Source: Gammaproteobacteria bacterium (GTDB lineage: Bacteria > Pseudomonadota > Gammaproteobacteria > JAABTG01). From it: 64,000 nt of DNA. The translations under genes and the position numbers were made by a program. This document shows positions 2,060-20,885 of the stretch, piece after piece. A model generated the notes under the pieces. That model worked only from the letters and a program-made list of their open reading frames with translations. It searched no databases and had not been told where the DNA came from. The stretch lies in contig JAGNLM010000004.1 in NCBI GenBank assembly GCA_017999615.1, positions 450-64,449 on the forward strand, in the 5' to 3' direction. Numbering within the stretch: position 1 is the stretch's first letter; every line of letters begins with the position of its first letter.

Positions 2060-2830
2060 ATGAAGGCGATCATCCTCAGCGCTGGGCAGGGCACACGGCT
2101 TCTTCCGGCGACCGAGCGTGCTCCCAAGTGCACCGTGCCGCTGGCGGGGAAACCACTCATCGAGTGGCAGCTCGACCACCTGGCCCAGTGCGGGGTCGAG
2201 GACGTCACCGTGGTGGTGGGCTTCGGCGCGGAGTATGTGGACGCCCTGGTCGCCCGCCGTGCGGGCTCCGGTCGCGTGCGTACCCTGTTCAACCCGGACT
2301 TCGCGGTAGCGGACAATCTCTTCAGCTGCTGGATGGCGCGCGGGGAGATGACCGAGGATTTCGTGCTTCTCAACGGGGATACGGTGTTCGAGCCGGCGAT
2401 ACTCGAGCGCCTGCTCGCGTCCCCCGTTCAGCCCGTGACGCTCGCCATCAACCGCAAGGCACACTACGACGACGACGACATGAAGGTGGAGCGCTCGGGA
2501 GCGCGGCTCCTCAAGGTCGGCAAGGACCTGCCCCTGGACCAGGTGGACGGCGAGTCCATCGGCATGATGGTCTTCCGTGGCCAGGGGCCGGCGCTGTTCC
2601 GCGAGGCCCTCGGTCGCGCCGTGCAGCGCAAAGAGTCCAAGAAGCAGTACTACCTCTCGGTCATCGCCGAGCTGGCTCGCGAGGGGTACGTCTGGACGCA
2701 GGACATCTCCGGGCTCGAGTGGAGCGAGATCGACTATCCGCTCGACCTGGTTCGCGCCTCGAAGCTCGCAGCCGGCTGGAAGCACGCGGCGGGAGAGCGC
2801 ACCTCCCGGACGGCGGGCCCCGCCCGCTAG
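2060..2830 (+). CDS. Sugar/alcohol-phosphate nucleotidyltransferase (LicC/IPCT-like)
   Basis: 256 aa, Rossmann-type nucleotidyltransferase that would join a phospho-compound to CTP or another NTP. The pyrophosphorylase signature is intact: LSAGQGTRLLPATERAPKC at residues 6-24, with the GQGTR loop at 9-13 and the conserved Lys after it. LLNGDTVFE gives the metal-binding Asp. It is closest in feel to phosphocholine or inositol-1-phosphate cytidylyltransferases, but the substrate cannot be read. The ATG at 2060 is chosen because the signature then starts at residue 5. It ends tail-to-tail with the next gene, overlapping by four bases. Placed at the edge of the lipid island, it may make the activated head group; this is inference. 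Confidence 0.7.
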   Translation: MKAIILSAGQGTRLLPATERAPKCTVPLAGKPLIEWQLDHLAQCGVEDVTVVVGFGAEYVDALVARRAGSGRVRTLFNPDFAVADNLFSCWMARGEMTEDFVLLNGDTVFEPAILERLLASPVQPVTLAINRKAHYDDDDMKVERSGARLLKVGKDLPLDQVDGESIGMMVFRGQGPALFREALGRAVQRKESKKQYYLSVIAELAREGYVWTQDISGLEWSEIDYPLDLVRASKLAAGWKHAAGERTSRTAGPAR

Positions 2831-3651
2831 CGCGGGTCGACTCTACCGCGCAGGATCCGCTCGGCGTACTCCCGGTCGGAGACCTTGTCGACGTCCACCG
2901 CGGCCTCGGGATACGGCAAGAGCACGGTCCCGATCCGCACACCCAACTGGAGCGAAAGCCGCTCCAGGGCTTGGCCGAGGGTCAAGCGCCCCGTGAGGTA
3001 GCGCAGGACCGTTCCCCAGCCGAGCGCCCGCAGCATGCGCCAGGGCCGCTTGCGCTCCCCCTCGACGCGCCGCCAGAAGTCCGCCACACCCCGGGCCGCG
3101 GGTGAGAGGAAGGCGTAGAGATTGCACCCGCTGTAGACGTCGTCCCGAAAGCGCAGGCCCGTGCGGTGCATGCCGGGAAAGGCGGCCATGACCTCCTTGT
3201 AGCGGGCGAGCCCCACGACCAGTTCCGAGCCGGCCCTTCGCGCGTGGCCGCAGAAGTACTCCACCACCTCGGGGCGCAGCAGCGCGTGGTCCCCCGTGGT
3301 GAGGAGCACTGGCTCCGACTCGGGCAGGCTCTGCAGGGCCGCCAGCGCACTCGTGCTCGGGGTCGGACCAGGGGGCAGCCAGTCCCAGGCTCCCGTGGCC
3401 ACACCCGCGCGTAGCTCGCCGTCCTGCTCCAGGGCCTCCCGGGGTGGACCGCAGAGCACGCAGCGGCCCACCTGGGGACTGCCCGCGAGGGCGTCGAGGA
3501 CACGCAACAGCATGGCCCGCCCGCCGACCGGGACCAGGGACTTGTAGCGAACCCCGGCGGAGAGCGCCAGCGGGTCGTCGGGGGTGCGGTCGCCCGCGAG
3601 CACGACCGCCGTGAAACGCGGCGCTTCGTCCCGGACGCTAGCGGGGGACAC
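2827..3651 (-). CDS. MobA-like NTP-transferase family protein
   Basis: 274 aa with an N-terminal MobA-like nucleotidyltransferase fold. TAVVLAGDRTPDDPLALSAG followed by KSLVPVGGRAML near residues 14-48 is a variant of the GGxSxRxG...K loop, and LLTTGDHALL supplies the usual Asp pair region. The C-terminal half, with YSGCNLYAF and many basic residues, is not assigned to a domain. The start is GTG at 3651, with GAGGG eight bases upstream. It is divergent from the bCerS-like gene, 73 bases away, and convergent with the nucleotidyltransferase at 2060-2830. Because the Gly/Arg loop is unusual, catalytic activity is not certain. A role in head-group supply for the neighbouring lipid genes is only inferred. 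Confidence 0.62.
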   Translation of the reverse strand: MSPASVRDEAPRFTAVVLAGDRTPDDPLALSAGVRYKSLVPVGGRAMLLRVLDALAGSPQVGRCVLCGPPREALEQDGELRAGVATGAWDWLPPGPTPSTSALAALQSLPESEPVLLTTGDHALLRPEVVEYFCGHARRAGSELVVGLARYKEVMAAFPGMHRTGLRFRDDVYSGCNLYAFLSPAARGVADFWRRVEGERKRPWRMLRALGWGTVLRYLTGRLTLGQALERLSLQLGVRIGTVLLPYPEAAVDVDKVSDREYAERILRGRVDPR

Positions 3652-3724: not shown

Positions 3725-4843
3725 ATGGCGATCAGCATACGCGAAGTCGAGACCCGGGCCGACCGCAAGGAATGGGTGCGCTTTGCCTTCGAGCTCTACC
3801 GGGACGACCCGCACTGGGTCCCGCCGATCATCTCCGACGACCACGCCTACTTCGACCCGGATCGAAACCCCGCCTTTGAAGTGAACCGGGCTCGGCGATT
3901 CCTCGCGCAGTCGGGAGGCCGCACCGTCGGCCGGGTCTGCGCCAGCGTCAACGAGCTCGAGGCCGGGAAGCTCGGCCACCTGCGGGGACGCTTCGGGTGG
4001 TTCGAGTCCATCGACGACCCGGAGGTCGCCGGACGTCTCCTGGAAGCCGCCCGCGATTGGCTGCGCGGGCAGCAGTGCACGGAGATGACGGGGCCCCAGG
4101 GGTTCACGGACCTCGATCCGGAGGGACTCCTGATCGAGGGATTCGAGCGCCTGCCCACCATCAGCGGAAGCTACAACCCGCCCTACTACCGGCAGCTCCT
4201 CGAGGGCTTCGGACTCACCCGGGACGCCGACTACATCGAGTATCGCCTGCGCGTCCCGGACGAATCGCCGCTGCTCGAGCGCCTGCGCAAGCGCTACGGT
4301 GGGAACGACCGGTACCGGGTCGTGACCTGCCGGAGCCGCCGCGAGCTGCTCGGACACGCGCCGGCCATCTGGGCGTTGCTGGAAGCCGCCTTCGCCCCGC
4401 TCTACGGGGTGGTACCGCTCACCGACACCCAGCGCGAGTACTACACCCGAAAGTACTTCAACTACCTCGACCCGGAGCTGGTGAAGCTGCCCTTCTCCCG
4501 CGAGGGCGAGCTGGTGGGATTCTTCATCGGCATGCCGGGGCTGAGCCGGGCCCTGCAGCGCGCCCGGGGCCGTCTGCTGCCCTTCGGTTTCCTGCCGATC
4601 CTGCGCGACTACCGCCGCCCGGAGACGGTGGAGTTCCTGCTGGCCGGGGTGAAACCGGGCGAGCCCTCCGCCATCGTCACAGCGGTCACGCTGATCGACA
4701 TGTACGACACGCTGCGCCGGCGGGGCGTGCGCTTCATGGAGACCAACCGCGAGCTCGAGGACAACACCACCGTCAACCGGATCTGGCTCAATTTCGAGCA
4801 GGACTACTTCCGCCGCTCGCGCGTGTACCGGATGCCGGTCTGA
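3725..4843 (+). CDS. GNAT-fold acyltransferase-like protein, candidate bacterial ceramide synthase
   Basis: 372 aa. The N-terminus shows the pattern FELYRDDPHWVPPIISDDHAYFDPDRNPAFE, then FLAQSGGRTVGRVCA, of a widespread proteobacterial family of GNAT-like proteins. To my recollection the ceramide synthase bCerS of Caulobacter belongs to this family; I could not check this. If so, it N-acylates a sphingoid base made by the Spt-like enzyme at 11011-12219. The C-terminal half has a second GNAT-like part ending MDTLRRRGVRFMETNRELEDN. The ATG at 3725 was chosen as the first good start, although its ribosome site is weak. A metallophosphatase and a HIT gene follow closely in the same direction. Family is likely; the ceramide assignment rests on gene context. 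Confidence 0.58.
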   Translation: MAISIREVETRADRKEWVRFAFELYRDDPHWVPPIISDDHAYFDPDRNPAFEVNRARRFLAQSGGRTVGRVCASVNELEAGKLGHLRGRFGWFESIDDPEVAGRLLEAARDWLRGQQCTEMTGPQGFTDLDPEGLLIEGFERLPTISGSYNPPYYRQLLEGFGLTRDADYIEYRLRVPDESPLLERLRKRYGGNDRYRVVTCRSRRELLGHAPAIWALLEAAFAPLYGVVPLTDTQREYYTRKYFNYLDPELVKLPFSREGELVGFFIGMPGLSRALQRARGRLLPFGFLPILRDYRRPETVEFLLAGVKPGEPSAIVTAVTLIDMYDTLRRRGVRFMETNRELEDNTTVNRIWLNFEQDYFRRSRVYRMPV

Positions 4844-4860: not shown

Positions 4861-5844
4861 GTGACGGAACTGGTGCTCGCCCACCTCTCCGACCCGCACC
4901 TCACCCATCTGGGGGAGGTGCGCGGCCGGGAGCTCCTGAGCAAGCGGGTTCTCGGGTACCTCTCCTGGCGCACGCACCGCCGGCACGTGCACCGCTCGGA
5001 GGTCCTGGACGCGCTCCTCACCGACCTGCGCGGCGTCGCCGCAGACCAGGTGGTCGTCACCGGGGACCTCACCCACATCGGTCTGCCCCAGGAGTTCCGC
5101 CAGGCAGCCGCCTGGCTGCCCCGCATCGGCGCACCGGACCGCGTGTTCGTCATCCCGGGAAACCACGACGCCTACCGGTGGGCCCCCTGGTCCGAGACCT
5201 TCGCGCTCTGGGCCCCGTACCTCGCCTCCGACCCAGGGGCTCCGGCGGCGTCCACCGACGGCCGGGCCCCCCTGCCGACCCTGCGCGTGCGCAACGGCGT
5301 GGCCTTGATCGGTCTCAGCACCGCGCGACCGTCCCCTCCCTTCATGGCCACCGGCCGGATCGGACGGGCGCAGCTCGAGGCCCTGGGGGACATGCTCCGC
5401 ACGACCGGGGAGCGAGGGCTCTTCCGGGTGCTGTTGATCCACCATCCCCCGGTGCCCGGCAGCATCCGCTGGCGCAAGCGGCTCACCGACGCGCCCGCGC
5501 TGGGTGCGGTGCTGGCCGAGCGGGGTGTCGAACTGGTGCTCCACGGTCACGCCCACCGCGACTCCCGTCTCTGGCTCCCGACCCCCGCCGGAAGGGCCCC
5601 GGTCATCGGCGTGCGGTCCGCATCAATGCACGGCCCGGACGCGGCGCGGCGCGCCCAGTACCATGTGTTCCGTATCTCGCGCCGGGGGCGAGGCTGGAAC
5701 GTGCGCCTCTCGGTGCGGGAATACGCGCCCGAGGAGCACCGCTTCACCCCGGTGGGCGCGTGGGAGGTGGACTCGCCCGGCCCCCGGGAGAGGGGCACAG
5801 ACAGCGACAGGGAGAAGGAGATGGAGACGGAGACGGAGACATGA
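4861..5844 (+). CDS. Calcineurin-like metallophosphoesterase
   Basis: 327 aa with all metallophosphoesterase motifs in order: LSDPHLTH near residue 9, VVTGDLTHIG, PGNHDAY, LLIHHPP and LHGHAHRD. These bind two metals and cleave phosphomonoesters or diesters. The start is GTG at 4861, 17 bases after the bCerS-like gene. The end overlaps the HIT gene by ATGA, so the two are translationally coupled. The C-terminal tail DSDREKEMETETET is low-complexity and encoded by GGAGAC hexamer repeats. Substrate unknown. In the lipid island it could act on a nucleotide-linked or phospholipid intermediate (like LpxH or a phosphatase of UDP/CDP-linked lipids), which is inference. Confidence 0.85.
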   Translation: MTELVLAHLSDPHLTHLGEVRGRELLSKRVLGYLSWRTHRRHVHRSEVLDALLTDLRGVAADQVVVTGDLTHIGLPQEFRQAAAWLPRIGAPDRVFVIPGNHDAYRWAPWSETFALWAPYLASDPGAPAASTDGRAPLPTLRVRNGVALIGLSTARPSPPFMATGRIGRAQLEALGDMLRTTGERGLFRVLLIHHPPVPGSIRWRKRLTDAPALGAVLAERGVELVLHGHAHRDSRLWLPTPAGRAPVIGVRSASMHGPDAARRAQYHVFRISRRGRGWNVRLSVREYAPEEHRFTPVGAWEVDSPGPRERGTDSDREKEMETETET

Positions 5845-6275
5845 ACGAGACCATTCGCCGGTTCGGCTACCCCGCGACCCTCATCCGGGAGTATCCCGAC
5901 TGGGTCGTCCTGCTGCGCCCCCGGCAGGCCACCCTGGGGACGCTCGTGGTCGCCTGCAAGGACGACGTCCTGCGGCTCTCCGACGTGTCCCTCGACGCCT
6001 TCGCCGCGCTGAAGCAGGTGGCGGTCGACGTGGAGACGACCCTGCGTGCCGAGTTCGACTGCCAGCGCATCAACTACCTGATGCTGATGATGGTCGACCC
6101 GCACGTCCACTGGCACGTCCTCCCCCGCTACCACAGCCCGAGGACCTTCGCCGGCATCACGTTCCCGGACCCCGGCTGGCCAGCCCTGCCGGACCTCTCC
6201 TTCGCGACCCCGACCGAGCCGGGCGTGCAGGCCGCGCTGGTGGAGCGTCTGCGGGCGGCGTGGCCGAAGAGCTGA
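5841..6275 (+). CDS. HIT family hydrolase/transferase
   Basis: 144 aa. The histidine triad is at residues 88-92 in DPHVHWHVLPRY (H-V-H-W-H-V), the signature of nucleotide hydrolases and transferases such as Hint, Fhit and GalT relatives. The length fits a single HIT domain. It overlaps the metallophosphoesterase stop (ATGA at 5841-5844), so it is coupled to it. A pyrophosphatase-type HIT enzyme such as Cdh (CDP-diacylglycerol hydrolase) would fit a lipid-nucleotide pathway, but the sequence does not prove substrate. Confidence 0.85.
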   Translation: MNETIRRFGYPATLIREYPDWVVLLRPRQATLGTLVVACKDDVLRLSDVSLDAFAALKQVAVDVETTLRAEFDCQRINYLMLMMVDPHVHWHVLPRYHSPRTFAGITFPDPGWPALPDLSFATPTEPGVQAALVERLRAAWPKS

Positions 6276-9273: not shown

Positions 9274-10995
9274 TTACGCAAGAGGTCGCGCTCCGGAAGC
9301 CGCGAATTGTCCCACGGGCATGGGTACCAACGCCCCGTCTTCCAACCTCACCACCCGGTCCGCGATCTCGGCCAGCCCCGTCTGGTGCGATACGGCCAGC
9401 ATCGTCACCTCGCCCCTCAACCGGGCCAGCGTCTCGCACAACGCCGCCTCGCTCGCAGGGTCCAGCGCGCTGGTCGCCTCGTCGAGGATCAGGAGCTTCG
9501 GGCGGCGGACCAGCGCCCGGGCAATGGAAATGCGCTGGCGCTGACCACCCGAGAGCATGCTGCCCCGCTCACCGACGGTCGTCTGCATCCCTTCCGGCAT
9601 CGCACTCACGAACTCCCACGCCCCGGCTGCGCGCAACGCTCGCTCCGCGTCGCCCTCGGTGAGGTCGGGGTCACCCAGGATGACGTTGTGCAGCACGCTC
9701 TCGTGCAGCAGCAGGGTCTCCTGGGGAACGTAGCCGATCATCCGGCGCCACGCCTGGAGGTTGCACTCGCCCAGGGCAACCCCGTCCAGCGTCAGTCGGC
9801 CGGACGTGGGCTCGAGCAGACCGGTCACCAGGTCGAGGATGGTCGTCTTCCCCGCACCCGAAGGCCCCACGATCGTGGTGAAGGAGCTCGCTGGAAGCCT
9901 CAGGGTCAGGCCGCGCAGGATGGGCCGGTCGCCGAACGCGAAGTGCACGTCCTCGAGGGCCAGTTCGCGCTCGAACACCGGTGTACAGCCGTGGGGCTCG
10001 GCCTCAGGCGACCCCTCCGCTCGGTCGATGGTGCCCCGCAGCGACCAGTAGGCGCTCTCGTTGACCGACATCTTCTGATATTCGTGCTGCAGCTTGCCCG
10101 CGAGCTTCAGCACCCGCAGCAGGAGCAGCATCAGGACCACGACGCTCGCGAGAGGCAGGCCCCAGACGTTCACCACCAGGTAGGCGGCGCCAGCGACGAA
10201 GGCGATAGCCACGGGCTCGTGGATCGCCCGCAGGCCCTCGACGCTCAGGACCTCCTTGCGCATCGCCTTGTTCATGCGTCGCGTCTCCGCCTCCAGCACC
10301 ACGTTGGCCCCGCCCGCGAGCCCCATGGTCTTGAGCGCCTTCACCGACTGCAGCGTGTCCGCCATGCGCCGCAACAGCGACACGAGCACGTCCGTCTGCC
10401 GGCGCCCGGCGCGGCGGGCCTTGCGCACCAGCCGCCCCAGGGAGAGCGTGATGGCCGCCCCCCCCAGCACCGCCGCGAGCGTGGCCTGCCAGGACACGAA
10501 GAGGGCAGCGACCGTGTACACCAACGTCTCGACGGCGTGCGCGAGCGCCCGTGCGCCGCTCAGATAGGCGTTGGATGCGCGCACCGTCTCCGTGGCCATC
10601 GCGTTGGCGAGCGAGCCCACCGGCTGATGCAGGAAGAACTCCCAGCGGGCGCGCAGCAAGGCACGCAGCAGCCGCAGGCGCAGGTCGGTGCCGATCTGCG
10701 CCACCGTGTACCCGACGTGGCGATTGGCCAGCAGCACCATCGCGGCCTTCAGGCTGACGCCGACGACGATGATCAGCAGCAGCGGCCCGAGGGATGGGTC
10801 GATGCCGAGGCCGTGGAGGAACTTCCCCAACCCACGCTCGCTCTGCCCCCCACTCTCGGCGTTGGCCGCAAGGTCCAGGATGGGGAACAGCGCCGACAGG
10901 CTGATCCCCTCGAACACACCCGCCACCAGAAGGGCGACCAGGGTGACCAGCGTGCGCCGGGGGTAGGCCCGGGCGATCTCACGGAGGAATCTCAT
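9274..10995 (-). CDS. ABC exporter, fused membrane and ATPase domains (MsbA-like)
   Basis: 573 aa half-transporter. The N-terminal ~310 residues hold about six hydrophobic helices (LVALLVAGVFEGISLSALFPIL is the first). The ATPase domain follows with Walker A GPSGAGKTT, the signature LSGGQRQRISIARAL and Walker B LLILDEATSALD. The last residues contain the His switch (LAVSHQTGLAE). This is the architecture of exporters of lipids, peptides or drugs. It lies 15 bases downstream of the Spt-like gene on the same strand, so it is probably in its operon. Flipping a sphingolipid or glycolipid product is a reasonable guess but unproven. Confidence 0.85.
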   Translation of the reverse strand: MRFLREIARAYPRRTLVTLVALLVAGVFEGISLSALFPILDLAANAESGGQSERGLGKFLHGLGIDPSLGPLLLIIVVGVSLKAAMVLLANRHVGYTVAQIGTDLRLRLLRALLRARWEFFLHQPVGSLANAMATETVRASNAYLSGARALAHAVETLVYTVAALFVSWQATLAAVLGGAAITLSLGRLVRKARRAGRRQTDVLVSLLRRMADTLQSVKALKTMGLAGGANVVLEAETRRMNKAMRKEVLSVEGLRAIHEPVAIAFVAGAAYLVVNVWGLPLASVVVLMLLLLRVLKLAGKLQHEYQKMSVNESAYWSLRGTIDRAEGSPEAEPHGCTPVFERELALEDVHFAFGDRPILRGLTLRLPASSFTTIVGPSGAGKTTILDLVTGLLEPTSGRLTLDGVALGECNLQAWRRMIGYVPQETLLLHESVLHNVILGDPDLTEGDAERALRAAGAWEFVSAMPEGMQTTVGERGSMLSGGQRQRISIARALVRRPKLLILDEATSALDPASEAALCETLARLRGEVTMLAVSHQTGLAEIADRVVRLEDGALVPMPVGQFAASGARPLA

Positions 10996-11010: not shown

Positions 11011-12219
11011 CTAGGGAGCCCCCGTCCCCCCCGCCTCCCCCGCGATCGGCCGCAGGGCGAGGAAGGCCGCGAGGATGGCGTCGACCTGCTCCGGCGTGTG
11101 GGCCGCGCTCAGGCTGCAGCGCAGCAGGCAGGCCCCCGAGGGCGTGGCGGGCGGAAGGATCAGGTTGACGTAGACACCGCGCGCCAGCAGGTCGTGCCAC
11201 CAGACCAGCGCCTGCTCCTGGCTTCCCACCTCCACCGCCACCACCGGGCTCGGCTGGGGCCCCAGCCGGAAACCGGCGCCCGCGAGCCCGTCGTAGAGGT
11301 GATGGACGTTGCGCCAGAGGTGCTCGCGCAGTTCCTCGCGCTCGCGCAGGATGCGCAGGGCGACGCGGGTCGAGGCGATGACCGAGGGCGCGGGCGAGGC
11401 GGTGAAGATGTAGGAGCGCACCGCGTTGCGCATCAGGTCGAGCTCCGGGTGGCGGCTGACGCAGAACCCCCCGACCGAGCCGAGGCTCTTGCTGAAGGTG
11501 CCGACCACGAGGTCGACGTCGTCCTCCACGCCTGCCTCCTGGCAGAGGCCCCGCCCGGTCGCCCCGAGCACGCCAAGCGAGTGCGCCTCGTCCACGAGCA
11601 GACAGCCTCCCAGCTCCCGCTTGACCGCCGCCATCTCGGCGAGCGGGGCGCGGTCGCCGAGCATGCTGTAGATGCCCTCCACCACGATGAGGGTGCGCTC
11701 CGCCCTCTCGCCCAGCCGGCGCAAGCGCTTCTCGAGGTCGGCCGCCTCGTTGTGCCGGAAACGGACCACGTCGGCCCCGCTCAGGCGCGTGCCCTCGTAG
11801 ATGCTCGCGTGGCAGTCGGCGTCGAGGAGGATCGTGTCGCCCTGTCCTGCCAGGGTGCTGACGACCCCCATCGTCGCCAGGAAGCCGGTGGAGAACACGA
11901 CGGCGGAGGGTACCCCGTAGAATTCCGCGAGCTCGCGCTCGAGCGCCAGGTGGCTGCCATACGTGCCGTTCGCCATGCGCGAGCCGGTGGTTCCGGTGCC
12001 CTGCTCCGCCACGGCCCGCTGGGCGGCCTCGATGCATTCGCGCTCGAAGGTCAATCCGAGGTAGTTGTTGGTGCCGGCCAGGATCACCCGCCGGCCCTCG
12101 ATGAGGCCCTCGGTGGCCGAGACGATCCGCTCGGTCACCACGCCGATGGGCAGGGTACCGAACGCCGCGAGCTGGGCCCGGGTGGCCGCGAGCGGCTGGA
12201 ATTTCTCGAATAGCTTCAT
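11011..12219 (-). CDS. spt: Serine palmitoyltransferase-like alpha-oxoamine synthase
   Basis: 402 aa PLP enzyme of the alpha-oxoamine synthase family (AONS, KBL, HemA, SPT). Conserved residues: GTGTTGSRMANGTYGSH at 74-90, VDEAHSLGVLG with Asp210 and His213, and TFSKSLGSVGG with the Schiff-base Lys244. Alone, sequence cannot separate SPT from BioF. No other biotin genes are nearby, while the neighbourhood is acyl-ligase, ACP, reductase and lipid kinase, so serine palmitoyltransferase (first step of ceramide synthesis) is favoured. The ATG at 12219 has GAAGGGG about 10 bases upstream. The gene is divergent from the LptF-like gene and precedes the ABC exporter. Confidence 0.7.
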   Translation of the reverse strand: MKLFEKFQPLAATRAQLAAFGTLPIGVVTERIVSATEGLIEGRRVILAGTNNYLGLTFERECIEAAQRAVAEQGTGTTGSRMANGTYGSHLALERELAEFYGVPSAVVFSTGFLATMGVVSTLAGQGDTILLDADCHASIYEGTRLSGADVVRFRHNEAADLEKRLRRLGERAERTLIVVEGIYSMLGDRAPLAEMAAVKRELGGCLLVDEAHSLGVLGATGRGLCQEAGVEDDVDLVVGTFSKSLGSVGGFCVSRHPELDLMRNAVRSYIFTASPAPSVIASTRVALRILREREELREHLWRNVHHLYDGLAGAGFRLGPQPSPVVAVEVGSQEQALVWWHDLLARGVYVNLILPPATPSGACLLRCSLSAAHTPEQVDAILAAFLALRPIAGEAGGTGAP

Positions 12220-12297
12220 GGCAGGGGCCCCTTCACCGCGTCGGTGGCGGTAGCATACCGTATCCCTGACACCCCACCACGTACTCCTGAGCCTGCG

Positions 12298-13395
12298 TTG
12301 ATCGCGACCCGGTACATCGCCCGCGAGATCTATCAGCCCTTCCTGGCGGTGGTGACGGTGCTGCTGGTGGTCTTCGCCGTGTACACCACGGCCATCGTCC
12401 TGAACGACGTGGTGGCGGGCGCGCTTCCCGCCCACGTCGTCCTGCGCCTGGTGCTGATCAAGTCGCTCATCGCGCTGGAGGTCCTGCTGCCCGTGGCGTT
12501 CTACTTCAGCGCCGTCATCGGGCTGGGGCGCCTGCACGCCAGCTCGGAGATGCTGGCGCTCGCCGCCTGCGGGATGGGGGAGCCCCGGGTACTCAGGACC
12601 GTCCTGCTACCCGCCTTCGCCGTCGCCTTGCTGTCAGCCGTACTCTCGGTGAGCGTGCGGCCCTGGGCCTTCCAGCAACTCTATGTGCTGAGGGCCGTGG
12701 CCGACGCCGAGTTCGACATCGAGGACCTGGAGGCAAAGCAACTCTTCGTCAGCCCGGACTCGCGCTATGCCGTCTATGCGGTGTCGGTGGACCACGCGGC
12801 GCGCAGCGCCCACGACGTGGTCGCCCAGATGCGCAACGGGGAACGGCTGCTCGTGATCGAGGCCGAGAGCCTCCATCAACCTCCGCAGCGTCTCGAGGAC
12901 AGCCCGGTCTTCGAATTCTCGCGGGGCCGGGCCTTCCGCATCGACCGCCGGGGGACGCGCGACACGACGATGGACTTCGGGGTGCTGACGGTGCGGCTCG
13001 AGGCACCGGAACCCCCGGAGATCGGCTACAAGATCAAGATGCAGAGCACGGCGGCCCTGAGTCACGCCACGGCAGGCAAAGGACTCGCGGAGTTCCAGTG
13101 GCGCCTCTCCACGCCGGTGTTGACGCTCCTCCTCGCCGCGCTCTCGGTACCCCTCAGCCGCGCACCCCCGCGCCGAGGCCGGTTCCTTGGCCTGGTGATC
13201 GCGATGCTCGCCTTTGCCCTCTTCTACGCCCTGCTCCTCAGCGCCAAGAACCTGGTCCACGACCGGCTGGTGGGCCCGGTGCCCGGCCTGTGGTGGCCCA
13301 TCGCGCTCCTCGCGCTGACGGTCCTCGCCCTGCTAGCCTGGCCCTGGGTCCGGCGCCGCTGGCACCCGCGATCTGCCTCACCCGCCTATGGCTGA
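12298..13395 (+). CDS. LptF-like permease
   Basis: 365 aa, LptF/LptG (YjgP/YjgQ) family. It has N-terminal membrane helices starting at IATRYIAREIYQPFLAVVTVLLVVFAVY, a periplasmic beta-rich domain in the middle (about residues 130-260) and C-terminal helices from LSTPVLTLLLAALSVPL. In the Lpt machine such pairs extract lipid A from the inner membrane. A TTG start at 12298 is chosen because it gives the usual LptF opening (MIxxRYIxREI); a GTG at 12244 is the alternative. It overlaps the next gene by eight bases. Adjacent spt suggests it may extract a sphingolipid rather than LPS, but it could be the organism's general lptF. Confidence 0.8.
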   Translation: MIATRYIAREIYQPFLAVVTVLLVVFAVYTTAIVLNDVVAGALPAHVVLRLVLIKSLIALEVLLPVAFYFSAVIGLGRLHASSEMLALAACGMGEPRVLRTVLLPAFAVALLSAVLSVSVRPWAFQQLYVLRAVADAEFDIEDLEAKQLFVSPDSRYAVYAVSVDHAARSAHDVVAQMRNGERLLVIEAESLHQPPQRLEDSPVFEFSRGRAFRIDRRGTRDTTMDFGVLTVRLEAPEPPEIGYKIKMQSTAALSHATAGKGLAEFQWRLSTPVLTLLLAALSVPLSRAPPRRGRFLGLVIAMLAFALFYALLLSAKNLVHDRLVGPVPGLWWPIALLALTVLALLAWPWVRRRWHPRSASPAYG

Positions 13396-14485
13396 CGGGC
13401 GCGGGTCCACGCCGCGCGTCACTCTGATCGACCGCTACGTCGGCCGTACGGTCCTCGGCGCCCTCGTGCTCGTGCTGCTCGCGCTCCTCCCGCTGTTCAC
13501 CATCCTCGACCTGGTCCAGCAGCTCGACGAGGTGGGCAAGGGCAACTACGGCTTTCTCGACGCGGTTCGCTACGAGCTGATGGTGCTCCCGCGCCGGGCG
13601 CTCGACCTGCTGCCGTTCCTCGTCCTCACGTCCACCACCATCGGGCTCGCGATCCTCTCTCACTTCGGCGAAACCATGGCCATGCGCTCCTGCGGCGTCT
13701 CGCGGCGCCGGCTCGGGCTCGCGGTGGTCAAGGTCGGGCTCGCGCTGATGGTGCTGGCAGCCCTCTCCGACGAATTCGTCGCCTCGCCCCTGAATCGGCA
13801 GGCCACCCGGGAGCGGGCCGTTGCGCTGGAGGGTCGGGAGGTGCTGCTCAGCGAGGACGGCTTCTGGATGCACGCCGGCTCCCGGTTCGTCAGCATCGGC
13901 CAGGTGCTCCACGGCCGCCTGCCCCAGGAGATCGACATTCTCGAGGAGGCCGAGGACGGCCACCTGCAGCGATTCGTCCACGCGCGCGAGGCCGACATCG
14001 CGAACCCCAGGTGCTGGCTGCTGCGGGACGTCATGGTCAAGCACCTCGGCCCGGGGGCGCCCCTCTCCGAACGGATGGAGGAGCTCCCGTGGGACTCCTA
14101 CCTGTCGCTGAAGCAGGTCGAGATGCTGCAGCTGGAGCCCCATGTGATGTCGCCGGCGCAGCTCTTCGGCTATGCGAGGTATCTGGAAAAGACCGGTCAG
14201 AACCCGGCCCGTTACGAGATGGCGTTCTGGCAGAGGGCCACCTTGCCGCTCGTGACCAGCGCCATGGTCCTGCTCGCCCTGCCCGCGGGCTTCGGCCGGC
14301 CTCGGTCGTCGGACACCGGCAAGCTTGTCCTGTTGGCGGTTGCCGTGGGTCTGGCCTTCCAGGTCGTCAGCCAGCTCGCGGCAAACGCCGGGCTGGTGTT
14401 CTCCATCCCGGCGCCGGTGGTGACCCTCGGGCCGCTGCTGCTCGTCTTCGCGGGGGCCTTCTGGCTGTTGCGCAGGGCCGGCTGA
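13388..14485 (+). CDS. LptG-like permease
   Basis: 365 aa partner of the LptF-like protein, YjgP/YjgQ family. It opens with TLIDRYVGRTVLGALVLVLLALLPLFTILDLVQQLDEV, the usual LptG start. A periplasmic domain follows (about residues 120-255) and final helices (LPLVTSAMVLLALPAGFG; VGLAFQVVSQLAANAGLVF). It overlaps the LptF-like stop by eight bases, so the pair is coupled. LptB, LptC and LptA are not nearby. It is convergent with the Tam41-like gene across a 35-base gap that carries a tRNA-like sequence. Confidence 0.82.
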   Translation: MADGRGSTPRVTLIDRYVGRTVLGALVLVLLALLPLFTILDLVQQLDEVGKGNYGFLDAVRYELMVLPRRALDLLPFLVLTSTTIGLAILSHFGETMAMRSCGVSRRRLGLAVVKVGLALMVLAALSDEFVASPLNRQATRERAVALEGREVLLSEDGFWMHAGSRFVSIGQVLHGRLPQEIDILEEAEDGHLQRFVHAREADIANPRCWLLRDVMVKHLGPGAPLSERMEELPWDSYLSLKQVEMLQLEPHVMSPAQLFGYARYLEKTGQNPARYEMAFWQRATLPLVTSAMVLLALPAGFGRPRSSDTGKLVLLAVAVGLAFQVVSQLAANAGLVFSIPAPVVTLGPLLLVFAGAFWLLRRAG

Positions 14486-14520: not shown

Positions 14521-15531
14521 CTACCGGAAGGCACCGCGCCGATACAGGCGCCAGGCGAGCCCCCAACCGTAGATCAGCGGGTGACGGCGCTCGCGCTCCG
14601 AGGCCTCGACCCGCACGCCCGAGTGGCGCTCGAGCTTCCATAGGAGGTAGTCGACCCCACCCTGGAAGGTGAATGCCGACTTCGCAAGGCGCAGCGCCGA
14701 CAGGGTCTTGCCCTGGACCCGCCGCGCGGACCAGGCCAGCCGGCTCCGCCGCCGGGTCCGCGGCGGTATGCTGGCCTCGTGCAGGGGAATGCTGGCCTCG
14801 CCCATCGAGCCCCCCTCTCCGGCGACGCTGCGCACGGGCCAGGCCAGCACGCCCAGGGCGGGCGCGGTGACCTCCCGGTAATACTCCGGGTCGCTCTCGA
14901 CGATCAGGGCACTGCGCTGGCTCTTCTCGGCCCGCAGCTCCGTGGCGTAGCTGAGGGCGAGTGCCCGTTCCCAGAGGTCCGCCTCCGTGAAGCGCTCGGG
15001 CAACGCCGGCAGGGCCCGCCAGAGCAGGGTGACCACCGCCTGCCCCAGGGCCTGCAGGAGCTCTCCCCTCACCCGCTCGTCCGCAGCGTAGAGGATCGCC
15101 GTCGGCTGGGCCAACCGGCCCCACAGGTACGACTGGAACCAGCGTGCGGAAGTCCCCCGGAGCAGGTGGCGCATGGAGAACACGGCGTACTTGCACCGCA
15201 CCCGCCCGGCCGGGACTGGCACTTCGAGGTAGAACACGTTCGGGGGCAGCAGCGCGTTCGCGAGGGCCGTGAGGGGATCGCGGTACGCCGAGCGGTAGCG
15301 GTCCACCACCACGTACAGGTCCACGAGCCCGTCCAGGGCGTTGCCCGAGCGCAGGCAGGAGCCGTAGAAGAGGATGCCGCGCAGCGCCGGGCCATACCTG
15401 CGCCGAAGCGCCTCGCGCAGGGCACCGAGCTCCGTCCCGGGCACGTGGCGCGAGGCCAGCCGAACGAGCGCGGCGACGAGGCCCGTTCCCGGCGCCGGCG
15501 GGCTAGAAGCGGAGGAAAGCGACCCTTCCAC
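14521..15531 (-). CDS. Tam41-like nucleotidyltransferase (putative CDP-lipid synthase)
   Basis: 336 aa. Residues 54-77 hold a polymerase-beta-type active site: FYGSCLRSG (G57-S58) followed by Asp71 and Asp77. Further on, Lys114 in KYAVFS and SYLWGRLAQP at 134-143 match the segments that mark the Tam41 family, the mitochondrial CDP-diacylglycerol synthases. This is my reading by eye. In the family the reaction is CTP + phosphatidic acid giving CDP-diacylglycerol. Here the gene follows a lipid kinase and a CDP-alcohol phosphotransferase in one operon, so a ceramide phosphate could be the acceptor instead. The start is GTG at 15531, overlapping the kinase gene by 29 bases. Protein class is likely; substrate is inferred. 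Confidence 0.6.
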   Translation of the reverse strand: MEGSLSSASSPPAPGTGLVAALVRLASRHVPGTELGALREALRRRYGPALRGILFYGSCLRSGNALDGLVDLYVVVDRYRSAYRDPLTALANALLPPNVFYLEVPVPAGRVRCKYAVFSMRHLLRGTSARWFQSYLWGRLAQPTAILYAADERVRGELLQALGQAVVTLLWRALPALPERFTEADLWERALALSYATELRAEKSQRSALIVESDPEYYREVTAPALGVLAWPVRSVAGEGGSMGEASIPLHEASIPPRTRRRSRLAWSARRVQGKTLSALRLAKSAFTFQGGVDYLLWKLERHSGVRVEASERERRHPLIYGWGLAWRLYRRGAFR

Positions 15532-16510
15532 CCACCGACACCCGCACCGGTCCCGCCTTCCGCGACGCCTGGTAGACCTCCCCGTCCACGGTCACGGGAC
15601 CGTCCATCTCCAGGCTGAGACTGTCGAGCTTCCCGCTGTGGTAACCGTGCTCCGGCGTGGCGAACCGCCCTGCACGCCCCCAGAAGAGAGGGAGCAGCGT
15701 GCGCGCCGCGTGGCCAGCACGCGCCCTCAGCCGGCTGTGGTAGAAGGCACCCTCGGCGTCTCCCCAGTAGGGGCGAAGCCCTGCGAACAGTCGCTCGAGC
15801 GAACTGGCCAGCACCAGGAGATAATCCTGTTCCTGGTCTTCCTCCTCGCCGCCCGCCTGTTCCCTGGCCACGCGTCCCGCGACCGTCATCGGCCGGGGCG
15901 AGGCGTACCGCTCGTCACCGCGGGCCATCGCCCAGAGAACCCGCAGGGTGCAGAGGGCCGGGGCAAGGCTGTCCCGCAGACCCCGGCTGTGAACCCTCCG
16001 GTGGCAGAACTCGATCCCCCGGACGATGGCGCCGGTCCCGAAGAACATCCCGAACTGGGCTGGGCCCTCGGGGCTCACGTCGACCCGGAGCACGGGCCGC
16101 TCGACGAGCGTGCCCTCCAGCTCGCCCGACGGGTCCAGGAGCCGGCGCAGCGACGGCAGCAGGGCCTCCCTCGACCCGACGTCTCCCGCCGTCATGTTGG
16201 TCGTACCCCCGCGCAGCAGTACGAGCAGGGGCAGCCGGGGAAACGGCCCCTCGAGCAGGAGCGTGGTGAGCACTGCCGCCACGGTCCCGTCGCCGCCGTT
16301 GACCACAAGCAGGTCCGGCGGGTCGGCTCGCATCTCCCTCAGCGCCTCGGAGACGGCCCGCTGGCCCCGGGCCTCCCGGTACACGACGCCCGATCGCGCC
16401 GACAGCAGCGCCCGCACCTCTGCCAGGTGTCGACGGTTACGGCCGCTCTCGGGATTGGTGACGCAGGCGAGGCGCAGCGGCCGGCGCAGTCGGATGGGCT
16501 GGTCGGCCAC
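15503..16510 (-). CDS. Diacylglycerol/ceramide kinase-like lipid kinase
   Basis: 335 aa with a DAGK catalytic domain. The NGGDGT motif at residues 71-76 after LLVV binds ATP, and the C-terminal beta sandwich ends with a TVDGE-like segment (MDGPVTVDGEVYQ). Members phosphorylate lipid alcohols, diacylglycerol or ceramide. The ceramide kinase CpgB of Caulobacter is of this type by recollection. The start is GTG at 16510, 15 bases after the CDP-alcohol phosphotransferase stop. Between spt-associated genes, ceramide is the favoured substrate but diacylglycerol or undecaprenol cannot be excluded. Confidence 0.7.
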   Translation of the reverse strand: MADQPIRLRRPLRLACVTNPESGRNRRHLAEVRALLSARSGVVYREARGQRAVSEALREMRADPPDLLVVNGGDGTVAAVLTTLLLEGPFPRLPLLVLLRGGTTNMTAGDVGSREALLPSLRRLLDPSGELEGTLVERPVLRVDVSPEGPAQFGMFFGTGAIVRGIEFCHRRVHSRGLRDSLAPALCTLRVLWAMARGDERYASPRPMTVAGRVAREQAGGEEEDQEQDYLLVLASSLERLFAGLRPYWGDAEGAFYHSRLRARAGHAARTLLPLFWGRAGRFATPEHGYHSGKLDSLSLEMDGPVTVDGEVYQASRKAGPVRVSVGGRVAFLRF

Positions 16511-16525
16511 GGCCGGGCGGCGGCG

Positions 16526-17755
16526 TCAGCTCCGGCCCCCGTTCGGGGACCGGGCCCCCCCGCCAGCGAACCAGCGCACCGCCAGGGAGCGGTCGGTCGG
16601 GTCCTTTCCGGCGCCTTCGAGCCAGGAGACCAGCGGCCCCACGGAGGCGCGCTCGCGGTAGGCCATCGCCAGACGAGCCAGAAGGAACGCCGCGGACAGC
16701 AGGGTCCAGAGGGTCACCGCCTCGAGCCCCAGGTCGGGCCGGCCCGCCAGGGCGCCCAGGGTGAGCAGGATGAGCGAAGGGTTGCGGCGCGCGGTGACGA
16801 GGCGCGAGTAGGAGTCGACCTTGCGCCAGCAGAAGATCCCGAAGCGCCCGAGCCACTGCTTGAAGGCCCCCTCCGTCAACCGCCCGAGGATGTAGCCCAC
16901 GAAGAGCAGCCAGACCGTTACCTTGACGGACGCCGGCAGCAGCAGCGGCTGGTAAGAGGACAGGCCAACGGCCCAGGCGAGATACCAGAAGGGGGGAGAG
17001 ATCAGGTCCAGGATGTGGTCGAAGAAGTGACCGAACGTGCTGGAGGTCACGGTGACCCGCGCGAGCTTACCGTCCACGGTGTCCAGATAGGTCATCAGCC
17101 AGGCGAGCGCCAGCCCCCACCCGAAGTGGCCGTACCCGAACAGGAACAGGACCACAGTCGCGAGGGCCCAGTTGAGCGCCGTGACCTGATTGGGCGTGAT
17201 GCCCCAGTGGGCGCAGAGGCGCACACCCCACTGGGCAGGCACTGGCCAGACGAAGCGCGTCACCAGGTCCGTGATGCCCTTGTAGGCGGCGCCAAAGAGG
17301 AGCCGCTCCAGTTCGGCCCGCGACCCCTCCGTGATGGGGAGCACGAACGGCGGGTCCGCCTTGCGCAGACGCTCCTGGAAGGCAGGCGTCAGATCGTCCG
17401 CGGAGACCGTGCGCAGACCCCCCGGAAGGGGCTCCCCGGCGCCCCGGGCCTGCAGGCGCGCCGCCACCTCCCGGGCCAGGGCGCCCGGCACGTGCGCGGC
17501 CACGGGGATCGCCTCTTCTCCCACGCCCGCCCGCAGCACGGTGCCGGGGGCGTCGGTCAGCGCCCACAGCGTCCGGGCGTCCATCAGATAGTCGCCCCGC
17601 AGCAGGAGAACCGTGTCGCCGGCCGGAACCTGGGCCAGGCTGTCCACGAGGGCGAGGCTGCCCTTTCGGCGCATGAGCCGGCGCACCCGCTCGCGCAGGG
17701 ACAGGTCCCAGAGGCGGACCGGCGTCTCGTCGAGGATGTGAATGACGGTGGCCAT
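16526..17755 (-). CDS. CDP-alcohol phosphotransferase with N-terminal degenerate nucleotidyltransferase-like domain
   Basis: 409 aa. The CDP-alcohol phosphotransferase signature D-x2-DG-x2-AR-x8-G-x3-D-x3-D is complete: Asp225, Asp228, Gly229, Ala232-Arg233, Gly242, Asp246, Asp250. Several membrane helices follow. It would move a phosphoalcohol from a CDP-linked donor to an acceptor alcohol. Residues 1-165 form an extra soluble domain (MATVIHILDETPVRLWDLSLRER..., LLLRGDYLMDARTLWAL). It recalls nucleotidyltransferases such as those fused in IPCT-DIPPS enzymes, but the GxGTR loop is absent, so it is probably not catalytic. ATG at 17755 is one base after the ACP stop. Head group unknown. Confidence 0.72.
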   Translation of the reverse strand: MATVIHILDETPVRLWDLSLRERVRRLMRRKGSLALVDSLAQVPAGDTVLLLRGDYLMDARTLWALTDAPGTVLRAGVGEEAIPVAAHVPGALAREVAARLQARGAGEPLPGGLRTVSADDLTPAFQERLRKADPPFVLPITEGSRAELERLLFGAAYKGITDLVTRFVWPVPAQWGVRLCAHWGITPNQVTALNWALATVVLFLFGYGHFGWGLALAWLMTYLDTVDGKLARVTVTSSTFGHFFDHILDLISPPFWYLAWAVGLSSYQPLLLPASVKVTVWLLFVGYILGRLTEGAFKQWLGRFGIFCWRKVDSYSRLVTARRNPSLILLTLGALAGRPDLGLEAVTLWTLLSAAFLLARLAMAYRERASVGPLVSWLEGAGKDPTDRSLAVRWFAGGGARSPNGGRS

Positions 17756-17756
17756 G

Positions 17757-18008
17757 TCAGCCCGCCCCTTCGACCAGCCGGTCGATCTGCAGGGCCAGGT
17801 CCCGGACCGTGCGCACGTCCGGCAGCACGTTCAGCGGCACCGTGATGTCATAGCGGTCCTCGACGTCCATCAGCAGCTCCATGATCTTCAGGGAACTGAG
17901 GTCCAGGTCCGCCGTGAGGTCGGTGTTCTCGTCGATGACCTGGCCTTCCGGGGCGAAGGGCCGCAGGATTTCGAAAAGGGCCGAGCAGACTTCCGCGTGC
18001 GTGGGCAT
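17757..18008 (-). CDS. Acyl carrier protein, atypical DSL motif
   Basis: 83 aa acyl carrier protein. The phosphopantetheine site is LTADLDLSSLKIMELLMDVE, with Ser39 as attachment residue. The usual Asp before it is Ser38 (SSL instead of DSL), which sets it apart from fatty-acid-synthase ACP. The start ATG at 18006-18008 follows AAGGAG closely. An ATG at 18032 is possible but has no ribosome site. It is followed directly by the CDP-alcohol phosphotransferase. In the ceramide locus it would carry the acyl chain loaded by the ligase at 19074-20885 to the acyltransferase. Confidence 0.85.
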   Translation of the reverse strand: MPTHAEVCSALFEILRPFAPEGQVIDENTDLTADLDLSSLKIMELLMDVEDRYDITVPLNVLPDVRTVRDLALQIDRLVEGAG

Positions 18009-18097
18009 GGCTCCTTGACCGCCTGTGTCCATACGAATGTGATGTTAGCGGGTTTCGCGCGAACCGCCCCGCGCCAGCGCGCGCGGGCCCTGCGGGC

Positions 18098-19108
18098 TCA
18101 CGCCCCACCCTCCGGGGTTCCCGGGGCCAGGGTACGTTGCAGCCCCTCGGAGAACTCGACCTCCGGCCGCCAGCCCGTTGCTGCGCTGAAGGGCGCGTTG
18201 TCGCAGACCCAGTCGGGGTGGCCCAGCTCCCGGACCTTGCCGGGCGTCAGCATGGGCACCGCCCCGAAGAGCCGGGCCCGCGCGGCGTTCACGCGGGCCG
18301 CCCAGGCGAGCAGCGCGGTCGGCACGCTCAGAAGGCGCACAGGGCGACCCCTGAGACGGGCGGCGATCCCGGCGGCCTCGGGCCACGAGTAGCCTCCGGG
18401 ACGGCCGTCGTGGAGCTCGAAGGGCCCCTCCGGCGCGGCATCCAGGTGCAGCAGACGCTCGACCGCCGCGACGAGGTCGTCCACGAAGAGCAGCGAAAAT
18501 CGCCCGCTCCCGTTCCCCGGTGCCAGGGCGAGGCCGCGCATCATCATGCGCAGCAGCGGGCGCATCTCCCGGTCGCCCGGCCCGTACACGGCCGACGGAC
18601 GAAGCACGACGCGCCGCAGCCCTGCGCCCGCCGAGGCCAGGGCCTCCTCCCCCGCGCGCTTGCTCGCCGCGTACGGGGAGAGCCCCGGCTCCCGCGCGGC
18701 CAGCGACGACAGCTGAACGAAGAGCGGTGCGGGATGGGCATTCGCCGCCGCCCGCGCGAGGTGGAACACCCCTTCGACGTTGGCGGTCCGGAAATCGGAA
18801 TCGTCGAGCCCCCGCACGGCACCGGCGCAGTGGACCACGGCCCGGGCGCCGTCCACCAGGCGGGCGAGGCTCTCGGGCTGGGCCAGGTCGCCAGGCACCC
18901 ACTCGATACCGGCCCGGCGCAGCCCCTCCGGGCGGGACTCCCCGCGCACGAGGGCCCTGACGAGCCAACCGCGGGCGGCGAGACGGCGCGCCGCCGCACC
19001 GCCGATGAAACCGGTCGCGCCGGTGATGGCGACGACCGACGCCTCCGGGGCCACCTCGCTCAAAGCGAAGGGATCAGGCGACGCGCAGGGCGCCCGCCGC
19101 CCCTTCAC
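18098..19108 (-). CDS. NAD-dependent epimerase/reductase, CerR-like
   Basis: 336 aa extended SDR. The Rossmann loop is GATGFIG at residues 30-36 and the catalytic pair is Tyr146/Lys150 in YAASK. In ceramide loci such an SDR reduces the 3-keto group of ceramide or the sphingoid base (CerR). The GTG at 19108 overlaps the preceding gene by 35 bases and has GAAGG upstream. A GTG at 19054 would leave the usual short N-terminus and cannot be excluded. The role is inferred from neighbours; sequence alone also fits sugar epimerases or hydroxysteroid-type reductases. Confidence 0.68.
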   Translation of the reverse strand: MKGRRAPCASPDPFALSEVAPEASVVAITGATGFIGGAAARRLAARGWLVRALVRGESRPEGLRRAGIEWVPGDLAQPESLARLVDGARAVVHCAGAVRGLDDSDFRTANVEGVFHLARAAANAHPAPLFVQLSSLAAREPGLSPYAASKRAGEEALASAGAGLRRVVLRPSAVYGPGDREMRPLLRMMMRGLALAPGNGSGRFSLLFVDDLVAAVERLLHLDAAPEGPFELHDGRPGGYSWPEAAGIAARLRGRPVRLLSVPTALLAWAARVNAARARLFGAVPMLTPGKVRELGHPDWVCDNAPFSAATGWRPEVEFSEGLQRTLAPGTPEGGA

Positions 19109-20885
19109 CGGCCTTCGCGTCCCCGGTCCGGGGAGCCGCGGCGGCCTGCTGGCCGCGCGAATCGATGAAGTTCTGGCGGGCCTTGGAGCGCGAGAGCTTG
19201 CCCGAGGAAGTCCGTGGCAGCGTCTGGGGCGGCACCAGCTCCACGTGACACTCGATGCCGAACTCCGAGCGCACGAGACCCTCGAGCCGCTTGACCAGGT
19301 CCGCCCGGACCGCGGGGTCCGTGTCGCGGTTCTGCACCACCATCATGACCCGCTCTTCGTCGTCGGACCAGGGCACCGAGAACGCCAGGCAATCGCCCGG
19401 ACGCACCTCCGGCTGCTGGTGGGCCAGGTACTCGAGGTCCTGGGGCCAGACGTTGCGTCCATTGACGATCATCAGGTCCTTGCTGCGACCCGTCAGGAAC
19501 AGGTTCCCTTCCGCGCGGTAACCGATGTCGCCGGTGTTGAGCCAGCCGTCCGGCGACAGGGTTTCGCTCGTCGACTGGGGGTCCCGGAAATAGCCCGACA
19601 TCACGCTGGGGCCCCGCAGGAAGATCGTGCCGGTCGTCCGGTCACCGAGGGGCTGCCCGCTCTCGTCCCGGACCTCCACCTCGAAGTCCGGTATGGGCGC
19701 ACCGCAGTTTACGAACGTGCTGATGCGCGCGGGGGACGCGTCCTCGTCGGAACCGGCTGCGACCGCCTTCCCTTCAACGGCGAGCCGCTCGCTGTCCACG
19801 CGGTCCACGGACACCCCGGTGCCCAGGGGCGAGAAACTCACCGCCAGGGCGCACTCGGCCATTCCGTAACACGGCAGGAAGGCGCCCGGATCAAAGCCGC
19901 TGGGTGCCACGGCCTCGGCGAAACGCTGGAGCACCTCCGGGTGGATCATCTCCGCGCCGACGCCGGCGACTCGCCACGCGCTCAAGTCGTAGTCCGCTGC
20001 CTCGCCCGGACGCAGGCGCCGGGCACAGAGCTCGAAGCCGAAGGGCGGGCTGAAGGAAATCGTGGCCTTCGACCGGGACAGCAGGCTGAGCCACTGGCGG
20101 GGACGCATGGCGAAGTCCCGTGTCGCGAGGTAATCGACCGAGACCTGCCCCGCCACGGGAGTCAGCACGAGACCGACCAGGCCCATGTCGTGATAGAACG
20201 GGAGCCAGGAGACCGCCCGGTCGCCGGGGCGCAGTTTCACGCCGTGGCGGATGATTCCCGCCAGGTTGCTGAGGACCGTTTCCTCGGTGATGGCGACACC
20301 GCGGGGGAACCGCGTGCTCCCGGAGGTGTATTGCAGGTAGGCGAGCTCACCGGGCCCCGATGGGACCAGCTCGTCCGTGCTCTCCGGCAAGGCGTCGAAC
20401 ACCGACGGCTCGCCCACGAGCCGCAGGTCCAGGTCCTGCGCCGCCTCCTTGAGGTATTCGAGGAATCCTGCAGGCGACATGGCCAGCGCCGCGGCCGAGC
20501 TCTCGAGCATGCCCCGCAGCAACTGCACGTAGGCGTTGTGGCTGCCGAGGCTGACATGCACCGGCACCGGCACCGGCACCAGGCCCACGTACTGGCACGC
20601 GAAGAAGAAACGCAGGAAATCCGGGGAGGTGTCCGCGACCAGGACGAGCCGGGACCCGCGCTCCAACCCGAGGCTCGCCAGCCGGCGTGCCAGCAGGAGC
20701 GCCTCCTCGCGCAAGCGCGAATAGGGCAGAACCGCCGTCAGTTCGCCGCGGGCCGAGTAGAAATTGCACCCCGTCTCGCCCAGCGCTGCGTAATCCAGCG
20801 CCTCCGCGAGATTCGTGAAGTCGGCAGCCCGAAAGGGCAACCGATTCATGGTCGGCGTGGGTCTCTGATCCGAGGATGCGCCCAT
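19074..20885 (-). CDS. Fatty acyl-AMP ligase / acyl-ACP synthetase (AasR-like)
   Basis: 603 aa, adenylate-forming enzyme of the FAAL/acyl-ACP synthetase class. Motifs: YTSGST at residues 186-191, YGMAECALAVSF, NTGDIGYRAEGN, and GRNVWPQDLEYLA (with the invariant hinge region). These activate a fatty acid as acyl-AMP and transfer it to CoA or a carrier protein. The neighbouring unusual ACP suggests acyl-ACP as product. The gene is first in a minus-strand operon of six. ATG at 20885 is used; the ATG at 20849 is alternative. A CACCGG run around 20560 encodes VPVPVPVHV. Assignment to ceramide synthesis is contextual. Confidence 0.78.
   Translation of the reverse strand: MGASSDQRPTPTMNRLPFRAADFTNLAEALDYAALGETGCNFYSARGELTAVLPYSRLREEALLLARRLASLGLERGSRLVLVADTSPDFLRFFFACQYVGLVPVPVPVHVSLGSHNAYVQLLRGMLESSAAALAMSPAGFLEYLKEAAQDLDLRLVGEPSVFDALPESTDELVPSGPGELAYLQYTSGSTRFPRGVAITEETVLSNLAGIIRHGVKLRPGDRAVSWLPFYHDMGLVGLVLTPVAGQVSVDYLATRDFAMRPRQWLSLLSRSKATISFSPPFGFELCARRLRPGEAADYDLSAWRVAGVGAEMIHPEVLQRFAEAVAPSGFDPGAFLPCYGMAECALAVSFSPLGTGVSVDRVDSERLAVEGKAVAAGSDEDASPARISTFVNCGAPIPDFEVEVRDESGQPLGDRTTGTIFLRGPSVMSGYFRDPQSTSETLSPDGWLNTGDIGYRAEGNLFLTGRSKDLMIVNGRNVWPQDLEYLAHQQPEVRPGDCLAFSVPWSDDEERVMMVVQNRDTDPAVRADLVKRLEGLVRSEFGIECHVELVPPQTLPRTSSGKLSRSKARQNFIDSRGQQAAAAPRTGDAKAGEGAAGALRVA

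Follow-up and report, generated by a model that had tools for sequence, protein, structure and literature searches.

Caulobacter crescentus produces ceramide phosphoglycerate (CPG) and ceramide diphosphoglycerate (CPG2), the latter of which allows the bacterium to survive without lipopolysaccharide. Two enzymes of the pathway have proven activities: CpgB is a ceramide kinase (PMC10331486), and CpgD is a cytidine triphosphate (CTP):phosphoglycerate cytidylyltransferase (PMC12275187). Genetic experiments assign CpgB and CpgC to the formation of CPG, and CpgA, CpgD and CC_1153 to that of CPG2; loss of CC_1161 (CpgC) abolishes CPG, a CC_1159/CC_1160 (cpgA-cpgB) mutant supplied with cpgB alone still makes it, and a CC_1153 mutant still accumulates it (PMC11324152). 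In the same study CC_1159 (CpgA) was found to have a cytidine diphosphate (CDP)-alcohol domain and CC_1161 a CDP-diacylglycerol synthase domain signature, and its authors suggested a nucleoside diphosphate (NDP)-activated ceramide. The mechanism of CpgC is still termed 'unidentified' in papers from 2025-2026, and the chemistry of the CpgA and CpgC steps is still undemonstrated. A contiguous cluster has been described in Pseudomonas luteola in a 2024 paper. In this study I analyse a stretch of 64,000 nucleotides from a gammaproteobacterium (assembly GCA_017999615.1, contig JAGNLM010000004.1; hereafter the window), in which three genes at 14521-17755 probably represent cpgA, cpgB and cpgC of a complete CPG/CPG2 cluster.

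The explanation that I consider probable as a whole is a core of CpgB, CpgC and a CofC-like (CC_1153-type) nucleotidyltransferase, extended by CpgD and CpgA. CpgB would convert ceramide to ceramide-1-phosphate, onto which CpgC, with its Tam41 fold and basic C-terminal helix, would transfer cytidine monophosphate (CMP) from CTP to give CDP-ceramide; glycerate would displace the CMP to yield CPG, by means of an enzyme other than CpgA. CpgD would make CDP-glycerate, as shown in Caulobacter, and CpgA would attach the second phosphoglycerate from this soluble compound and not from CDP-ceramide. The CofC-like protein would act in a step shared by all organisms in which CpgC was found.

The preliminary description of this DNA placed a lipid kinase, a Tam41-like protein and a CDP-alcohol phosphotransferase on one strand, and their coordinates are exact, with all three proteins above their Pfam cut-offs (Table 1). 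It also read the gene order as the order of reactions, but the transcript runs from the CDP-alcohol phosphotransferase over the kinase of the diacylglycerol kinase family to the Tam41-like protein. Cpg genes A and B are separated by 15 bp, cpgB and cpgC overlap by 29 bp, and the acpR stop lies 1 bp ahead of cpgA, the first of the three. Their setting among ceramide genes is borne out: AasR-, CerR- and AcpR-type genes adjoin cpgA directly upstream on the same strand, and spt, above its NCBIfam equivalog cut-off, sits beyond the convergent lptF2/lptG2-type pair. The ceramide synthesis set of spt, cerR, aasR, acpR and cerS is thus together in the window, with cerS called by position and recurrence alone (the candidate has no match in Pfam or NCBIfam), and so is the full head-group set of CpgA, CpgB, CpgC, CpgD and a CC_1153-like protein. 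The genome measures 2.47 Mb and is 99% complete; its nearest named relative is a metagenome-assembled genome (MAG) of the Ectothiorhodospiraceae, with an 87% identical CpgC.

For comparison, 80 named loci, including that of P. luteola, were collected with the CpgC alignment, and 398 genomes sampled evenly from the phylum were searched whole, since a gene missing near CpgC may be present elsewhere in the genome. CpgC occurs in 27 of these 398 genomes, not counting a match of 23 bits in genome G543 that was treated as false. The kinase scores 43 bits against the Pfam family DAGK_cat (cut-off 23.6) and has the GGDG motif. Its gene immediately precedes cpgC on the same strand in 67 of the 80 loci, and lies no more than 1.5 kb from it in 25 of the 26 other sample genomes with CpgC. 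The prediction that the window kinase is a ceramide kinase is supported by this homology and context, and the homology to Caulobacter cpgABC, which the preliminary description had raised as a possibility with CpgB as the kinase, finds support in family, fold and named clusters.

CpgC reaches 43 bits against the Pfam family Tam41_Mmp37 (curated cut-off 24), and in a single-sequence phmmer search its only matches were fission-yeast Tam41 structures. An AlphaFold2 model based on an alignment of 23 sequences (predicted local distance difference test, pLDDT, 90.4) retrieves Tam41 as the top match in Foldseek (6ig4, E 7.7e-12), followed after the yeast chains by the Firmicutes Tam41-CTP complex 7ecd (E 5e-8), above other nucleotidyltransferases. 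The residues invariant in the 23 homologues (YGS, D71, K114, R139, Y195, E198, R200 and E202) align with the YGS, D, K, GR and SYxxDIR positions of Tam41. Across the 12 homologues that were examined, the net charge of the C-terminal 26 residues ranges from +5 to +7, comparable to the basic amphipathic membrane helix of Tam41 (PMC7018664). Fold, active site and setting favour CTP and ceramide-1-phosphate as the substrates, so that CpgC is plausibly a CTP:ceramide-1-phosphate cytidylyltransferase giving CDP-ceramide, which, if true, would be the sphingolipid counterpart of CDP-diacylglycerol. The phrase 'CDP-ceramide' was found in no paper within a literature of limited extent. The step is not the new branch that had been proposed, as the pathway is already known and the idea has been printed before in general form, as an NDP-activated ceramide made by CC_1161 (PMC11324152).

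The CDP-alcohol phosphotransferase matches the Pfam family CDP-OH_P_transf with 51.4 bits (cut-off 22), and consists of an N-terminal cytidylyltransferase-like domain (about residues 1-160) and a CDP-OH domain with the complete motif D(x)2DG(x)2AR(x)8G(x)3D(x)3D (DTVDGKLARVTVTSSTFGHFFDHILD); the D, G, A and R of this motif do not vary among 21 homologues. The best full-length fold matches of its model (pLDDT 86.7) are AF2299 (E 6.5e-10) and IPCT-DIPPS (E 2.6e-8), and the nearest solved relative of CpgD by sequence is the CTP:phosphocholine cytidylyltransferase 1jyk. IPCT-DIPPS, an inositol-phosphate enzyme, transfers from a soluble CDP-alcohol; the fold is only supportive in this respect, because the phosphatidylinositol-phosphate synthases that use CDP-diacylglycerol have the same membrane fold.

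In the even sample CpgA is found in 10 genomes, all among the 27 with CpgC, and CpgD occurs among these 27 in exactly the same 10 (10/10 vs. 0/17, Fisher p 1.2e-7; this and the later p-value are too small owing to the kinship of genomes, yet family f204 holds both states). The cut-offs were set post hoc, at the gap seen between orthologues and paralogues: CpgD orthologues score 191 bits or more and paralogues 131 or less, and the best CpgA match of a genome scores 352 bits or more as against 63 or less. Among the named loci, 57 cover 14 kb or more; CpgD is found in 19 of them, always with CpgA, and 31 have neither. Of 25 genomes without CpgA at the CpgC locus that were searched whole, two had an unequivocal CpgA at another site and one a weak, partial match; CpgD was present in none of the 22 without a CpgA-grade match and in 11 of 12 with CpgA. 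These genomes were a chosen set, for which reason the even sample was used besides. Caulobacter genetics and the exact co-occurrence thus lead me to infer, with some support from the fold, that CpgA consumes the product of CpgD and not that of the Tam41-like enzyme, that its task is to attach the second phosphoglycerate, and that the CpgC step can do without it, as the genetics implies. The three-step route of the preliminary description therefore stands for the kinase, by homology and context, and for a Tam41-like enzyme well placed to make CDP-ceramide, but its third step, head-group transfer from CDP-ceramide by CpgA, fails, since CpgA tracks CpgD.

The profiles divide the pathway into a core of CpgB, CpgC and the CofC-like protein and a facultative CpgA-CpgD pair that would add the second phosphoglycerate, and they direct attention to the CofC-like protein, which was not in the gene set of the preliminary description. 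It occurs in exactly the same 27 genomes as CpgC and in none of the 371 others (Fisher p 1.7e-42), with two copies in six of the 27, and it accompanies CpgC also in the 17 genomes without the CpgA-CpgD pair, whereas the published scheme has it in the CPG2 step only. This strict pairing is a new lead. The protein has one strong, close solved relative, TTHA0179 of Thermus thermophilus HB8 (2dpw), which a profile search finds with E 1.3e-37 and a search with the single sequence with E 3.6e-20. In the acidic glycolipid of this bacterium the phosphate of diacylglycerol-phosphate bears D-glycerate, linked via the 2-OH of the latter (PMC3398001), so that the lipid is a glycerolipid counterpart of CPG. 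CdsA is present in the Thermus control genome, where a search for Tam41 found none. By analogy this suggests that the CofC-like enzyme may deal with lipid-phosphoglycerate. A more far-reaching proposal combines two claims, namely that CpgC makes CDP-ceramide as a true liponucleotide parallel to CDP-diacylglycerol, and that the CofC-like protein is the dedicated partner putting glycerate on the lipid phosphate, a logic common to the glyceroyl phosphoglycolipids of Thermus and Deinococcus; I offer this combination tentatively, and would sooner doubt than accept it.

Alternatively, the three genes could form a linear chain, in which the kinase acts first, the Tam41-like enzyme makes CDP-ceramide and CpgA transfers the head group from it. 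The adjacency of the genes and the frequent use of CDP-lipids by CDP-OH enzymes point in this direction, and in two Nitrospirales loci, where two CpgA copies surround CpgB-CpgC, one of them could act first. I nevertheless regard this chain as quite improbable, as no CpgA-grade match exists in 17 of the 27 CpgC genomes of the sample or in 22 of the 25 selected named genomes, the presence of CpgA equals that of CpgD exactly, and Caulobacter makes CPG without CpgA (PMC11324152). Less probable still is that the Tam41-like protein is a second CDP-diacylglycerol synthase that merely happens to be located in the operon. Characterised Tam41 enzymes do use phosphatidic acid (PMC7018664), but a separate CdsA is encoded elsewhere in the window's genome, and therefore a Tam41-like enzyme is not needed for CDP-diacylglycerol and a restriction of CpgC to phosphatidic acid is unlikely; moreover, the association of CpgC with CpgB and ceramide genes holds across lineages, and loss of CpgC in Caulobacter abolishes CPG (PMC11324152).

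The most probable of the rivals, though I deem it unlikely, is that CpgC joins ceramide-1-phosphate to glycerate by some other chemistry of the nucleotidyltransferase fold, using a different nucleotide or a glycerate activated by the CofC-like enzyme. The identical distribution of the two proteins fits such a scheme, the published ones leave the mechanism of CpgC open, and no candidate for a separate transferase emerged; however, the fold and conserved residues of CpgC are those of a CTP-dependent lipid-phosphate cytidylyltransferase, and CPG is still made by the CC_1153 mutant. For the preferred sequence of steps, with CDP-ceramide as the intermediate and a CpgA that acts later, several points weigh on the other side. 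The substrate of CpgC and even its nucleotide are inferred, and the protein has a single conserved aspartate (D71) where many nucleotidyltransferases have two. The orthology to the Caulobacter proteins is deduced from protein families and folds and from the named clusters in P. luteola (locus L062) and Nitrosomonas. A transferase for CDP-ceramide and glycerate was sought among the unassigned neighbours of CpgC, and no family was present in all lineages. Finally, the CC_1153 mutant accumulates CPG (PMC11324152) although a CofC-like gene always accompanies CpgC, which counts against a direct role of this protein in the first step; in view of the two-copy genomes, redundancy of CofC-like copies is possible.

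Table 1. Features of the cluster in the window (aa, amino acids; locus counts refer to the named loci)
Feature	Coordinates	Strand	Details
CpgD-type CTP:phosphoglycerate cytidylyltransferase	2060..2830	+	NTP_transf_3/NTP_transferase
CofC-like (CC_1153-type) nucleotidyltransferase	2827..3651	-	PF12804 E 3.4e-13
CerS-type GNAT-like protein, bacterial ceramide synthase candidate	3725..4843	+	position; recurs with CofC-like gene in 30 loci
Metallophosphoesterase, possible CC_1158 counterpart	4861..5844	+	PF00149 E 5.7e-14; near CpgC in 37/80 loci
HIT-domain protein, occasional cluster member	5841..6275	+	PF01230 E 2e-6; near CpgC in 6/80 loci
ABC transporter, candidate sphingolipid flippase	9274..10995	-	PF00005/PF00664; near CpgC in 21/80 loci
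Spt, serine palmitoyltransferase	11011..12213	-	NCBIfam equivalog NF047599 618 bits, cut-off 500
LptF2-type permease	12244..13395	+	PF03739 E 8e-55
LptG2-type permease	13388..14485	+	PF03739 E 1.4e-63
CpgC-type Tam41-fold nucleotidyltransferase	14521..15531	-	336 aa, GTG start overlapping cpgB; PF09139 E 4.9e-11
CpgB-type lipid (ceramide) kinase	15503..16510	-	335 aa, VNGGDGT motif; PF00781 E 4e-11
CpgA-type CDP-alcohol phosphotransferase	16526..17755	-	409 aa; PF01066 E 2.1e-13
AcpR-type acyl carrier protein	17757..18032	-	PF00550 E 1.5e-8
CerR-type SDR/epimerase (ceramide reductase)	18098..19108	-	PF01370 E 2.9e-27
AasR-type fatty acyl-AMP ligase	19074..20885	-	PF00501 E 6e-53; NF006624 806 bits, cut-off 600

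Between the halves of the cluster (6330-9244, + strand) lie a family 4 glycosyltransferase and two open reading frames resembling a methyltransferase and a P-loop kinase, the latter two shared solely with the nearest relative (L039). The glycerate 2-kinase gene (MOFRL/DUF4147; 22405-21098, - strand) that separates purF from aasR is interrupted by an in-frame stop (SGGASSLV*LPAPGV) and is either a pseudogene or affected by a sequence error. As a dedicated source of 2-phosphoglycerate it was rejected, given this stop and the fact that it never recurs near CpgC in relatives.

The recurrent unassigned neighbours of CpgC are ELM1-type glycosyltransferases, a family without Pfam hit and a beta-hydroxylase. 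The first two (L062:12664-14952, L076:11082-12032) stand mostly beside CpgB-CpgC loci that lack CpgA and are possible sugar head-group enzymes, while the third, of the aspartyl/asparaginyl beta-hydroxylase family, adjoins CpgC repeatedly (L007:317-1018 and others) and is a possible lipid hydroxylase. In the Nitrospirales loci mentioned above (L049 and L050, from NPIRA04/NPIRA01) the CpgA copies flanking CpgB-CpgC are paralogues, and genome G279 has three CpgA-like copies; two transfer steps could possibly be split between such paralogues. Near-complete clusters are located on plasmids, namely pPNP1 of Pseudomonas sp. JS425 (L139) and p546-2 of Roseomonas haemaphysalidis (L140), with CpgC annotated as 'hypothetical protein', and plasmid records matching the CofC-like protein (16) and CpgC (17) come from the same organisms and Qipengyuania, so that plasmid-borne ceramide-phosphoglycerate clusters are potentially mobile. 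The cluster is also present in a record titled as a Klebsiella pneumoniae MAG (L082), a name that is doubtful.

Compared with the CPG/CPG2 cluster of C. crescentus (cpgA-D, CC_1152-CC_1168), the window has the same AasR, CerR, AcpR, Spt, candidate CerS and CpgA-D families, CC_1153- and CC_1158-like genes and a second LptF/LptG, but its host is a gammaproteobacterium, its gene order differs, with spt detached and located beyond lptFG; the named clusters of P. luteola and Nitrosomonas contain the same genes as the window. CpgC shares with the mitochondrial CDP-diacylglycerol synthase Tam41/TAMM41 and the bacterial Tam41 (7ecd) its fold, the GS...D, K, GR and SYxx[DE][IL]R motifs and a basic C-terminal helix, though with 12-19% identity in structure alignments and a ceramide setting instead of phosphatidic acid. 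The CofC-like protein is a full-length homologue of TTHA0179, while the glycerate lipid of Thermus is based on diacylglycerol and not, as CPG, on ceramide. CpgA resembles AF2299 and IPCT-DIPPS in combining an N-terminal cytidylyltransferase-like domain with a CDP-OH membrane domain carrying the complete motif; in contrast to both, its N-terminal domain is without the glycine-rich nucleotide loop, and the active cytidylyltransferase is found in another protein, CpgD.

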